Source: Tropicimonas sp. IMCC34043
GTDB lineage: Bacteria > Pseudomonadota > Alphaproteobacteria > Rhodobacterales > Rhodobacteraceae
Direction of reading: 5' to 3'
Length of the DNA: 64,000 nt
Assembly: GCF_003390845.1 (NCBI RefSeq)
Contig: NZ_QMEK01000002.1
Span: 248,001 to 312,000 of the forward strand
Shown: positions 3,281 to 7,851 of the stretch, in pieces
Layout of the letters: every line of letters starts with the position of its first letter
Numbering within the stretch: position 1 is the stretch's first letter
Made by a program: the position numbers and the translations under genes
The notes under the pieces: model-generated
What the model saw: only the letters and a program-made list of their open reading frames with translations
The model's database searches: none
What the model was told of the DNA's origin: nothing

Positions 3281-4168
3281 ATGGCGATCTACAATCTCGG
3301 GTCGATCAATATCGACTGGTTCTACAAGGTTCCGCACTTTCCAGTGGCGGGCGAAACCGTGGCCGCCGGCGCCTGTGACAGCGGGCTTGGCGGCAAGGGC
3401 GCCAACCAGTCGGTGGCGGCGGCGCGCGCCGGCGCCAGCGTTCATCACCTGGGGGCGGTCGGCAGCGAAGGCGTCTGGACCACCGAGCGGCTGAAGGCTG
3501 CGGGCGTTGACGTGACACATGTGGCGATCGAGATGGCCGCGCCCACCGGTCACGCGCTGATCTTCATCGAGCCCGATGGCGAAAACCGGATCGTGATCTA
3601 TCCCGGCACCAACCGGCTGATCGCCGATGGCGACGTCAAGGCGGCGCTGGCCCCTGCCCGGGCGGGCGACACGCTGATGCTGCAAAACGAGACCAACTGC
3701 CAGGTCGCGGCCGCACGGCTGGCGCGTCTTCGCGGCATGAGGGTGGTCTATTCGGCGGCGCCCTTCGATGTCGCGGCGGTGCGCGAGGTGATCGAAGACG
3801 TCGATCTTCTGGCCGTCAACGCGATCGAGGCTGAACAGGTCGCCGAGGCGCTCGGTGTGGCCATCACCGACCTGCCGGTGCCGGAATTGCTGATCACGCG
3901 CGGCTCAAAGGGCGCGACATGGCATGACCTCGCCACAGGCGAAACGCTGACCGTGACCGCGCCGAAGGTCACGCCGGTCGACACCACCGGTGCCGGTGAC
4001 ACCTTCGCGGGGTTCTTCTGCGCCAGCCGCGACCAGGGCCTGCCAGTCGCCGAATGCCTTGAACTTGCTGTCGCCGCGGCGTCGCTGAAGGTTACCCGCG
4101 AGGGCACCGCCGATGCGATCCCGACCATGGCCGAGACCCGCGCTTTCATCGCCGAGCTTGCCGGCTGA
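3281..4168 (+). CDS. PfkB-family carbohydrate kinase (ribokinase-like)
   Basis: An ATP-dependent kinase of the ribokinase/PfkB family, 295 aa. The first signature appears as GLGGKGANQSVAAARAG near residues 34-50 and the second, with the catalytic Asp, as DTTGAGDTFAGFF near residue 235. Overall it is closest to ribokinase, but the substrate (ribose, another pentose, a nucleoside) cannot be fixed from sequence, and no sugar transporter sits beside it. I placed the start at ATG 3281, giving MAIYNLGSINID, which is the usual family N-terminus; the frame is open upstream inside maeB. It ends convergently with msrA, 68 bases away. Confidence 0.85.
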   Translation: MAIYNLGSINIDWFYKVPHFPVAGETVAAGACDSGLGGKGANQSVAAARAGASVHHLGAVGSEGVWTTERLKAAGVDVTHVAIEMAAPTGHALIFIEPDGENRIVIYPGTNRLIADGDVKAALAPARAGDTLMLQNETNCQVAAARLARLRGMRVVYSAAPFDVAAVREVIEDVDLLAVNAIEAEQVAEALGVAITDLPVPELLITRGSKGATWHDLATGETLTVTAPKVTPVDTTGAGDTFAGFFCASRDQGLPVAECLELAVAAASLKVTREGTADAIPTMAETRAFIAELAG

Positions 4169-4899: not shown

Positions 4900-5053
4900 G
4901 GCAAGTCTCCTCTCCGGCCAAGAATGCGGTCGCGGCTCCCCGGCCGACAAGTCACCGGCGCGTGAGGTCACGGACAGGTGACACAGGTTTCAGGGTATCC
5001 TGCGACAGCCAAGGCGCTTTCCGCCGCCCCGAACTGCTCCTATCGTCCGCGCC

Positions 5054-5983
5054 ATGACAGAGACATCCGACAAGATCACCACCCATCAGGCGGCCGACGA
5101 TCCGCGCAACGACCATCTGCAGATCTGGCTGAACGGCCGGGTCGTGCCAAAGGCCGAGGCGCTGGTGTCGGTCTATGACGCAGGCTTCATGCTGGGCGAC
5201 GGCGTGTGGGAGGGGCTCCGGCTCTATGACGGCTGCTGGGCCTTCCTCGACGATCACCTCGACCGGCTGTTCGAGGCCGCCAAGGCGATCGACCTCGACA
5301 TCGGCATGAACCGGGCCGGAATCGCCGCGGCGCTGGAGCAGACACGCGCCGCGAACGCCATGCAGACCGACGCCCATGCGCGGCTGATGGTGACCCGCGG
5401 GGTGAAATCGCGGCCGTTCCAGCATCCGGGCCTGTCGCTGCAGGGACCGACGGTCGCGATCATCATGGAACATTCGGTGCCCTCGCTGCCGCGGCCGGTG
5501 CGGCTTGCCACCGTGCCCCATGTCCGCGGCTTGCCGATGACGCAGGACCCGAAGCTCAACTCGCATTCCAAGCTGAACTGTATCCTTGCCTGCATCGCCG
5601 CCGAGAAGGCCGGTGCCGACGAGGCGCTGATGCTCGACATCCATGGTTTTGTGAACACCACCAACGCCTGCAACTTCTTCATCATCCGCAAGGGGCAGGT
5701 CTGGACCAGTACCGGGGACTATTGCATGAACGGCATCACCCGCCAGAAGGTGATCGACCTCTGCCGGGCGAACGGCATTCCGGTCTTCGAACGCAACTTC
5801 AGCCTTGTCGATACCTATGGCGCCGACGAGGCGTTTCTGACCGGCACCTTCGGCGCCCAGACCCCGGTCGGGCAGATCGACGGCCGGGTAATCGGCACCG
5901 GCCAGATGGGCCCGGTCACCGAACGGATCCGCGGCCTTTACACGGCGCTGATCGCAAGTCAGGCCCCGACGGTGACCTGCTGA
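5054..5983 (+). CDS. Class IV aminotransferase (BCAT/D-amino-acid transaminase-like)
   Basis: A PLP-dependent fold-type IV aminotransferase of 309 aa. The PLP lysine is expected at about Lys173 in SHSKLNCILA, and the cofactor phosphate region at FVNTTNACNFF corresponds to the usual E/N-x-x-x-x-N stretch. The N-terminal motif VYDAGFMLGDGVWEGLR is typical of the family that includes branched-chain aminotransferase, D-amino-acid transaminase and aminodeoxychorismate lyase; the exact substrate is undecided. The stop overlaps the start of the sulfotransferase-like gene (TGATG), so the two are translationally coupled. That pairing is informative, because plant BCAT-like proteins carry the same two domains fused. 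Confidence 0.85.
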   Translation: MTETSDKITTHQAADDPRNDHLQIWLNGRVVPKAEALVSVYDAGFMLGDGVWEGLRLYDGCWAFLDDHLDRLFEAAKAIDLDIGMNRAGIAAALEQTRAANAMQTDAHARLMVTRGVKSRPFQHPGLSLQGPTVAIIMEHSVPSLPRPVRLATVPHVRGLPMTQDPKLNSHSKLNCILACIAAEKAGADEALMLDIHGFVNTTNACNFFIIRKGQVWTSTGDYCMNGITRQKVIDLCRANGIPVFERNFSLVDTYGADEAFLTGTFGAQTPVGQIDGRVIGTGQMGPVTERIRGLYTALIASQAPTVTC

Positions 5984-6699
5984 TGCGTATCGCCATGTGG
6001 TCCGGCCCCCGCAACCTGTCGACAGCGATGATGTATGCCTTCGGCAACCGCGCCGATTGTGCTGCAACCGACGAGCCCTTCTATGCTGCCTATCTGGCCA
6101 GGACCGGGCTCGATCACCCGATGCGGGCCGAGATCCTGGCCAGTCAGCCCCAGGACCCGGCCGAGGTTGCCGCGCAGATCATGGGCCCGATCCCGGGCGG
6201 CAGGCCGCATTGGTATCAAAAGCATATGACCCACCACATGGTGCCGGGCGTGCCGCGCGACTGGATGGCCGAGGTCGTGAACGTCTTCCTTCTGCGCCAT
6301 CCGGCGCGGGTGATCGCAAGCTATGCCGAGAAACGCGAAAACCCGACGCTTCAGGACATCGGCTTTGTCCAGCAGGCCGAGCTTTACGACGAGGTCATTG
6401 CGCGTCACGGCAGGGCGGTGGTGATCGACGGCGCCGATATCCGGATGGACCCCGAGGGGATGTTGCGCCGGCTCTGTGACGCCATCCTGTTGCCCTTCGA
6501 TGCCGCCATGCTGTCCTGGCCGAAGGGTCCGAAACCCGAAGACGGCGCCTGGGCACCGCACTGGTACAACGCGGCCTGGGCCAGCACCGGCTTTGCCGGC
6601 CCCGAGGGGCCGCTGCCAGAAGTGCCCGAGCATCTGCAGCCGGTGCTGAAAGCAGCGATGCCGGTCTATGAGGCGCTGGCGGCCGCCAAGCTCCGATAG
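5983..6699 (+). CDS. Sulfotransferase-like P-loop protein coupled to the aminotransferase
   Basis: A 238-aa protein with a PAPS-binding-like 5' loop near the N-terminus (SGPRNLST, residues 7-14), then DEPFYAAYL and FLLRHPARVIASY, all typical of the sulfotransferase fold. Near the C-terminus comes PEDGAWAPHWY...STGF. From memory, this is the same layout as the N-terminal domain of plant branched-chain-aminotransferase-like proteins. Whether it transfers sulfate is unknown. The ATG at 5983 overlaps the stop of the aminotransferase (TGATG); the frame is open upstream but the coupled start fits the family N-terminus. Confidence 0.7.
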   Translation: MRIAMWSGPRNLSTAMMYAFGNRADCAATDEPFYAAYLARTGLDHPMRAEILASQPQDPAEVAAQIMGPIPGGRPHWYQKHMTHHMVPGVPRDWMAEVVNVFLLRHPARVIASYAEKRENPTLQDIGFVQQAELYDEVIARHGRAVVIDGADIRMDPEGMLRRLCDAILLPFDAAMLSWPKGPKPEDGAWAPHWYNAAWASTGFAGPEGPLPEVPEHLQPVLKAAMPVYEALAAAKLR

Positions 6700-6834: not shown

Positions 6835-7851
6835 ATGAGCAATACGCAACACGATCCAGCATCGCGATTCGCAGATGCCTTGCCGTATGACCCGGTCGAA
6901 TGGGAGCAGCGACTGGCGAAGGCGCGCGTTCAAAGGGCCGAAGTTCTCAAGCGCAAGGGCCTCACCCTCGACGAGCCGAGTTTCGGCTTTCCCATGCACC
7001 TGAATGCGCCGCCACAGAAGGGCGGATCCAAACCGGACACGGCCCGGCCCATCGGGAAGGACCCCGGATCCCGACGCGAACGGCGGATGTGGCAGCTTGC
7101 GATTGTCGCGGCGCTTCTGGTCGGAGCGGCCATCGGGGCCTCTGTGCGGTCACTCACAAGCCCCGCCGAAACCGATGTAGCCGGCATCTATGTGGAATCC
7201 GCCGGCTCCGCTGAGGCCGCCGGCTCCGCTGAAGCCGCTGGCCCTGTAGAGGCCGGCGACGCGCAGCCCGCGCCATTGCTGCCGGTCACGGACCCGGCGC
7301 CGCAGACCGACGCTCCCGCCGAGGATGTCGCCGCCAGCCCGCCCGCACCGGCAGAGCTGCCCACGATTGCAGACATGGCCTTGGCAGACATGGCCTTGCA
7401 ACCGACGCCGCAGGTCCTGGCAGAACCGCCTGCGCCGGAAGATCCGGCCCCTGTCCCCGCGTTCGATGCCAACCACGTTGTCGTCTATGCCCCGGCAAGT
7501 GTTCCCGAGCAGCAGCGCGGCGAGATCGTCGATGCGTTGTCGCAGGCCGACTGGCATGTCGATGCGCCACGGCAGACCCGGTTCACAATCGCGGACACGC
7601 AGGTCCGCTTCTATCACGAAGAGGATCGCGAAGCGGCGCAGGCCCTCGCCGAGGCGGTCGGGGCAGAGGCGCGCGACTTCACGCAGTATACTCCGTCCCC
7701 CGACGTCGGCATGCTGGAGCTTTGGGTGGCCGGCAACAGCCCTTCGTCAAGCCGCAGCAATACTACCGTATCGAGGCGGAACACCGATCCGCAGGATCTT
7801 CCAGACATCCGCAAATTCCTGAAGCGGCTCGCCCGACCGCGCCCTGAATAG
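6835..7851 (+). CDS. Single-pass membrane protein with Pro/Ala-rich linker and LytR_C-like C-terminus
   Basis: Not recognised as a named family. The 338 residues divide into a charged cytoplasmic N-terminus (1-90), one transmembrane helix (about 92-112, WQLAIVAALLVGAAIGA), a low-complexity Ala/Pro/Glu linker with short tandem repeats (GSAEAAGSAEAAG; ADMALADMAL), and a compact C-terminal domain (about 218-305). That domain, from HVVVYAPASVPEQ to MLELWVAG, resembles the LytR C-terminal/SPOR-type fold used for envelope attachment or peptidoglycan contact. The topology suggests a periplasmic domain held out on a flexible linker. It has its own promoter region and ends before the argG terminator. 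Confidence 0.75.
   Translation: MSNTQHDPASRFADALPYDPVEWEQRLAKARVQRAEVLKRKGLTLDEPSFGFPMHLNAPPQKGGSKPDTARPIGKDPGSRRERRMWQLAIVAALLVGAAIGASVRSLTSPAETDVAGIYVESAGSAEAAGSAEAAGPVEAGDAQPAPLLPVTDPAPQTDAPAEDVAASPPAPAELPTIADMALADMALQPTPQVLAEPPAPEDPAPVPAFDANHVVVYAPASVPEQQRGEIVDALSQADWHVDAPRQTRFTIADTQVRFYHEEDREAAQALAEAVGAEARDFTQYTPSPDVGMLELWVAGNSPSSSRSNTTVSRRNTDPQDLPDIRKFLKRLARPRPE

Follow-up and report, generated by a model that had tools for sequence, protein, structure and literature searches.

Why should a gene for an aminotransferase-like protein overlap one for a sulfotransferase-like protein, and what could the two products do together? The question is raised by a gene pair in a 64,000-nucleotide stretch of the genome of Tropicimonas sp. 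IMCC34043 (hereafter the window; L and G numbers are our handles for loci and genomes). An earlier note on this DNA had described a class IV aminotransferase-like (AT-like) gene overlapping a sulfotransferase-like (ST) gene, and its coordinates are right: the stop and start codons form TGATG, with the A shared (Table 1). The motifs it named were recovered as SGPRNLST, PEDGAWAPHWY and STGF. Both proteins match their Pfam models above threshold, the AT-like protein to Aminotran_4 (PF01063; 7.3e-39, 134.3 bits against a threshold of 28.5) and ST to Sulfotransfer_5 (PF19798; 1.4e-90, 303.1 bits against a gathering threshold of 23.2, covering model positions 1-224 of 226). Upstream lies a divergent msrA-like gene, followed by genes for a pfkB-family kinase and a malic enzyme/phosphotransacetylase-type protein, and argG lies downstream; the names msrA and argG are our own, given by recognition rather than by profile scan. 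Between the pair and argG (6835-7851) is an Ala/Pro-rich gene of 338 codons, whose product had no Pfam match and whose cluster contained, among 142 loci, own-genome copies only.

Table 1. Features of the AT-like/ST gene pair, in positions of the window.
Feature	Position	Strand	Description
AT-like gene	5054..5983	+	309 aa; ATG at 5054, TGA at 5981-5983; class IV (fold type IV) aminotransferase-like; no catalytic lysine
ST gene	5983..6699	+	238 aa; ATG at 5983, TAG at 6697-6699; Sulfotransfer_5 (PF19798), predicted PAPS-type sulfotransferase
TGATG stop/start overlap between AT-like and ST genes	5981..5985	+	one base (A) common to both
Spacer between divergent msrA-like gene and pair	4972..5053	.	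82 bp from ORF coordinates; likely promoter region of the pair
Asn169 codon of AT-like gene	5558..5560	+	column of class IV Schiff-base Lys (DPKLN169SHSKLN vs canonical xxxIKSLNYLN)
Thr202 codon of AT-like gene	5657..5659	+	column of PLP N1-contacting Glu (VNT202TN vs VSEGS/VAEGS)
WSGPRNLST, 5'-phosphosulfate-binding loop of ST	5998..6024	+	residues 6-14; from residue conservation
K80HMTHH85 segment of ST	6220..6237	+	K80 and H85 invariant; candidate catalytic residues
R105HPARVIAS113, 3'-phosphate-binding motif of ST	6295..6321	+	R105 and S113 invariant; aligns with motif of 4gbm and 4gox

Sequence and model together predict that ST is a soluble PAPS-dependent sulfotransferase. Across an alignment of 57 STs (that of the window and 56 of the 79 picked), W6, S7, G8, P9, R10, N11, S13, T14, Lys80, His85, Arg105 and Ser113 were invariant; these include the residues by which PAPS-dependent sulfotransferases are recognized, in both the 5'-phosphosulfate-binding loop (R10, S13, T14) and the 3'-phosphate-binding Arg/Ser motif (R105, S113). 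An AlphaFold2 model of ST (pLDDT 96.4) retrieved 16 Foldseek hits with E <= 0.001, all of them sulfotransferases (TM-score by query 0.37-0.58), StaL among them, with P-loop kinases ranking just below. The top hit, 4gbm (CurM), is a remote match (15% identity; TM-score 0.50 by query). Together with 4gox it is also the nearest solved sulfotransferase by sequence, as the profile of the 57 STs matched the two at 6.4e-8 and 1.3e-7, respectively, with detectable homology over the 3'-phosphate-binding half. Unlike ST, both are polyketide synthase domains, in which sulfation of a hydroxyl precedes an elimination. PAPS, the putative donor, is supplied by APS kinase; this enzyme was identified in 94 of the 102 genomes with ST in the family sample described below, so PAPS should usually be available, and was not found in the other eight (76-96% complete). 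APS kinase was considered as a discriminating test for ST and dropped as uninformative, since it is present in 137 of 149 family genomes overall and in 43 of 47 without ST. PF19798 is named in the literature.

The AT-like protein, in turn, has lost the residues on which class IV transaminases depend for catalysis. When aligned using HMMER, the Schiff-base lysine of three solved branched-chain transaminases (IKSLNYLN) falls on Asn169 (KLNSHSKLN), and this column was Asn in all 115 distinct AT-like sequences (from 130 rows, loci up to L182). The column of the glutamate that contacts the PLP ring nitrogen N1 (Thr202 in the window protein) was Thr in 107 and Ser in 8 of the same 115 sequences, and no lysine at any position was conserved throughout the set, the best being K118 (111/115). 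These substitutions make a normal working aminotransferase highly improbable. Branched-chain transaminase, D-amino acid transaminase and aminodeoxychorismate lyase belong to the same fold family and share the phosphate-cup residues of the AT-like protein but, unlike it, carry the catalytic Lys as well as the Glu that contacts PLP. Both residues are also retained by the other three Aminotran_4 proteins encoded in the genome of the window: the glutamate aligns in all three, while the lysine occupies the Asn169 column in L278 only and, in L279 and L280, lies five columns earlier beside a gap (IKTVQLLY). A transamination step thus finds no support in a family without the class IV catalytic lysine and PLP-contacting glutamate, and the tests of transaminase substrates suggested in the earlier note would, for the same reason, probably fail.

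The nearest solved structure to the AT-like protein, PDB 7z79 ("Aminotransferase, class 4"; 6e-87), is lysine-less as well (RLNSHSRLN). A close variant chain, 9j32, carries Lys where 7z79 has Asn in the aligned stretch, and since the change falls at exactly that position, the depositors were probably aware of the loss; our literature search found no paper on either structure. 7z79 differs from the window protein in that it groups with lysine-less proteins whose genes have no adjacent ST (L155, L157, L139).

That the two genes would be linked in other genomes, as the earlier note expected, is borne out. In a family sample of 149 genomes from 148 genera (cut-offs of >190 bits for ST and E <= 1e-60 for AT-like), full-length ST was detected in 102 genomes and the AT-like protein in 105, with exactly one AT-like match per genome in all 105; both were present in 101, ST only in 1, AT-like only in 4, and neither in 43. 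The genes were adjacent in 71 of the 101 genomes with both (70 AT-like then ST, and one, G002, in the reverse order) and at separate loci in the other 30. Leaving out the 71 adjacent pairs gave 30/1/4/43 for the same four categories (Fisher test, 4e-16). A phylum sample of 349 genomes, overlapping the family sample by six, showed the same pattern (both 32, ST only 0, AT-like only 4, neither 313), and in its 12 ST genomes from outside the family, the genes were adjacent in every case (11 AT-like then ST, one ST then AT-like). Among 57 relatives of Leucothrix, a set that shares at least one genome with the phylum sample, the corresponding counts were 6, 1, 1 and 49. On a tree of argG, 12 independent supported contrasts in ST were identified, for which AT-like changed in the same way in 10-11 and in the opposite way in none (p about 0.001); this tree was built from 81 of the 149, after exclusion of those lacking a full argG match (it includes 40 of the 43 genomes that have neither gene, 37 of the 101 that have both, and 4 of the 5 that have a single one), its bootstrap is not settled, and argG adjoins ST in many genomes and is thus not a fully independent marker. 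Because both genes are nearly always kept or lost together in the sampled bacteria, one shared function is suggested and, given the linkage in other genomes, the single conserved function supposed in the earlier note is very likely.

Among 89 distinct bacterial loci with both genes, 58 showed an overlap of the two (34 by one base and 23 by four), and no fused open reading frame was found. These overlaps, combined with the extreme co-occurrence statistics, go beyond chance. Exceptions to co-occurrence run in both directions. ST without an AT-like gene was seen in G083, G517 and G492, and some of these genomes are perhaps incomplete assemblies. The AT-like protein without full-length ST was found in 4 of 105 AT-bearing genomes of the family, 4 of 36 in the phylum sample and 1 of 7 Leucothrix relatives, which indicates that the AT-like partner can work alone. 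A distant PF19798 subfamily (about 30-95 bits; G082, G098, G487, G520, G540 and others) does not track the AT-like protein, and PF19798 proteins scoring below about 100 bits are found in genomes with no AT-like partner. Relatives of the pair were detected neither in viral contigs nor in phages, and four, all weak, in plasmids.

Genomes in which the two genes lie apart offered a second view of this coupling. ST without an adjacent AT-like gene was seen at 24 loci, and in 21 of the 22 genomes that could be searched (at least four of which, G495, G496, G500 and G508, are by identical coordinates also in the 149-genome sample; in the same way, G560 and G179 are one genome), an AT-like gene was found elsewhere. 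Most distant copies fall in a sister clade, about 64-72% identical to the window protein and mostly encoded away from ST, which contained 17 of the 19 distant copies sampled (AT-like tree, support 97). The STs of genomes of this kind are scattered over the ST tree, with at least 6 changes forced by well-supported branches. From these trees, it appears that the AT-like gene has been exchanged many times for a sister-clade copy elsewhere, while ST stayed in place. One such exchange may be visible in Leisingera daeponensis (L018), in which about 45 N-terminal residues of the operonic AT-like gene persist as a truncated relic beside ST (about 3840-3974), and a 64%-identical AT-like copy is encoded elsewhere in the genome. 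The 30 family genomes with separated genes, along with this replacement of the AT-like gene, argue that the coupling does not come from linkage alone.

Loss of the lysine was itself associated with ST. A search with the AT-like partner encoded at L197 gave 38 matches in 36 of 369 genomes, and loci were examined for 30 of these. Fourteen were lysine-less, including 2 of a His-His-Asn-Asn type (L282, L283), both with ST upstream, and 12 of an Asn-Ser-(His/Leu)-Ser type; ST lies downstream of 9 of these 12, with L287 and L288 among the nine being near-copies. ST was therefore adjacent to 11 of 14 lysine-less proteins vs 0 of 16 lysine-bearing relatives (Fisher test, 7e-6); around these 16, which keep both lysine and glutamate, none was found within roughly 1.5 kb on each side. 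In a tree of 46 proteins, 29 lysine-less ones fell on one side of a single branch (support 100/99). The group of 7z79, L139, L155 and L157, which lacks an adjacent ST, branches from within the Asn type, suggesting that its link to ST was lost secondarily.

The His type offers a possible link to plants. The earlier note had pointed to plant branched-chain-aminotransferase-like proteins in which the same two domains are fused, and we scored a provisional 555-residue sequence of such a protein, one not taken from a database. This provisional sequence matched PF19798 at residues 7-236 (1.1e-42) and PF01063 at residues 291-517 (9.1e-48), i.e., ST first and then AT-like, and its lysine region reads SKIHHNNLLN, with no lysine at the Schiff-base position. 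Two bacterial proteins found only after this scoring (L282, L283) read SKIHHNNLIN and SKIHHNNLLN in this region, each with ST upstream, and the SKIHHNNLIN protein shares 63% identity with the AT-like half of the provisional sequence over 292 residues. Because the same motif and gene order turned up afterwards, the provisional sequence is credible and its type is tied to the bacterial ST-then-AT-like pair. Plants probably carry the same module in fused form. We keep the fusion as a lead: its domain order stands on both Pfam models for the provisional sequence and its bacterial counterpart has the same motif. Going by that sequence, the plant protein would share with the window pair the two domains and the missing Schiff-base lysine, but would be fused with ST first, whereas the window has two separate polypeptides, AT-like first, of the Asn-Ser-His-Ser type. 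The literature search yielded no paper on the AT-like/ST pair or on the plant fusion; in the parts of the literature accessible to us, the plant aminotransferase-like name occurs in lists of genes or proteins.

Clues to the ligand come from AT-like genes away from ST. Neighbors were listed for 21 AT-like loci without adjacent ST (18, plus L155-L157), and 10 of these, mostly chosen as operon-like, were scanned. Genes of family-3 amino acid ABC importers (SBP_bac_3, permease or ATPase) lay beside the AT-like gene at seven (L129, L139, L140, L155, L156, L157, L182), which points to a small, acidic, amino-acid-like ligand. The other three (L124, L126, L141) had a TRAP transporter, a ParA-like ATPase and a D-2-hydroxyacid dehydrogenase gene. 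The genomes of L129 and L139 have ST elsewhere, while no full-length ST was detected in those of L140, L155, L156, L157 and L182. GntR regulators (L157, L182) and a LysR gene (L155) were observed near the AT-like and importer genes, and a gene for a ProC-like pyrroline-5-carboxylate reductase lies upstream of them in L157 (3418-4251).

Genes around the pair itself vary between lineages and indicate no pathway: a pooled Pfam scan of 63 of 96 neighbors, whose rough gene calls served solely for picking them, found no family in more than 5. Two unrelated prolidase-like families adjoin the pair, each in one lineage, namely Xaa-Pro dipeptidase (NF051886; L146:8891-10213, L150:5401-6693) and M24 peptidase (L145:6205-7383, L149:9198-10376). 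Along with the ProC-like neighbor, they were considered as pathway clues and dropped as too lineage-bound. At L153 (4800-6761; genome G179), a TIR-domain protein gene is divergent from the pair and a catalase gene lies downstream.

Taken together, the co-conserved genes, the repeatedly replaced partner, the missing lysine, and a sulfotransferase with the expected fold and motifs lead us to favor a two-component sulfotransferase module that would act on a single small amino-acid-like acid, a reading to which we assign a probability of roughly 0.6. The AT-like protein would be a fold type IV protein that has moved past transaminase chemistry while keeping the phosphate cup and three pocket arginines, and would bind a small anionic amino-acid-like compound, possibly with non-covalent PMP or PLP. 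ST would place a sulfate, with PAPS as the likely donor, on a hydroxyl of that compound. The AT-like protein may either present the acceptor to ST or process the sulfated product, so that the two would act in turn on the same compound; that they share one small acid as substrate, and in which order they act, is what we infer rather than observe.

A first alternative, which we consider possible if somewhat unlikely, is that the AT-like protein has no catalytic role and serves as a scaffold or an allosteric pseudoenzyme that stabilizes or regulates ST, as might be suggested by the close partnership, the frequent gene overlap, and the fact that every one of the 115 distinct sequences has lost both canonical catalytic residues. 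Pseudoenzymes of this kind would not obviously explain the pocket, however: Arg56, Arg110, Arg115, Asn169, His171 and the phosphate cup are invariant or nearly so (for the cup, R71 and T229 in 115/115, and T265 in 112 with Ser in 3), which suggests a working ligand site. Nor would they account for those AT-like genes that adjoin amino acid importer genes where no full-length ST is present.

A second alternative, unlikely in our view, is lysine-free PMP chemistry activated by sulfation: ST would turn a hydroxyl into a sulfate leaving group, after which the AT-like protein would use non-covalent PMP to form a ketimine with a keto acid and so drive the sulfate out. ColD, an enzyme with His in place of Lys, catalyzes a dehydration by analogous PMP chemistry, and the His-type subclade would fit this scheme, with His replacing Lys and the PLP-contacting glutamate retained (L282, L283). 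The phosphate cup (R71, T229, T265) is also kept in both the His-type L197 and the Asn type, and the role of 4gbm and 4gox, sulfation ahead of elimination, would be in line with such a step. The majority type, however, carries Asn rather than His and lacks the glutamate too, which weighs against ordinary PMP chemistry.

Two further explanations are highly improbable. An ordinary class IV transaminase that merely neighbors a sulfotransferase agrees with the Aminotran_4 match, but not with the missing Schiff-base lysine and PLP-N1 glutamate in 115/115 sequences. Linkage without shared function, the genes being gained and lost as one operon block, would be consistent with what looks like an empty site in 15 of the 40 genomes examined that lack the pair (under 700 bp separates msrA from argG, and neither gene intervenes), but not with separate loci in 30 family genomes vs one gene alone in 5, nor with an AT-like gene apparently replaced repeatedly from elsewhere.

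For annotation, these results mean that AT-like proteins labeled as branched-chain or D-amino-acid transaminases are probably misnamed; they constitute a natural series of replacements of the catalytic lysine by Asn or His. A bolder proposal, which we hold to be rather doubtful, is a widespread module, encoded by two genes in bacteria and as one fused protein in plants, that couples PAPS-dependent sulfation of a hydroxyl to new chemistry of a lysine-less fold type IV protein on a sulfated amino or keto acid, e.g., a sulfate-activated elimination with non-covalent PMP. If true, this would provide a first function for the plant aminotransferase-like genes and show how the PLP fold can be repurposed after loss of its lysine. 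If the two-component sulfotransferase reading is right, the pair, which about two thirds of the sampled genera of the family possess and which is apparently fused in plants, would define an unknown sulfation pathway, and the plant "aminotransferase-like" genes could be put to the test as a two-component system amenable to study in bacteria.
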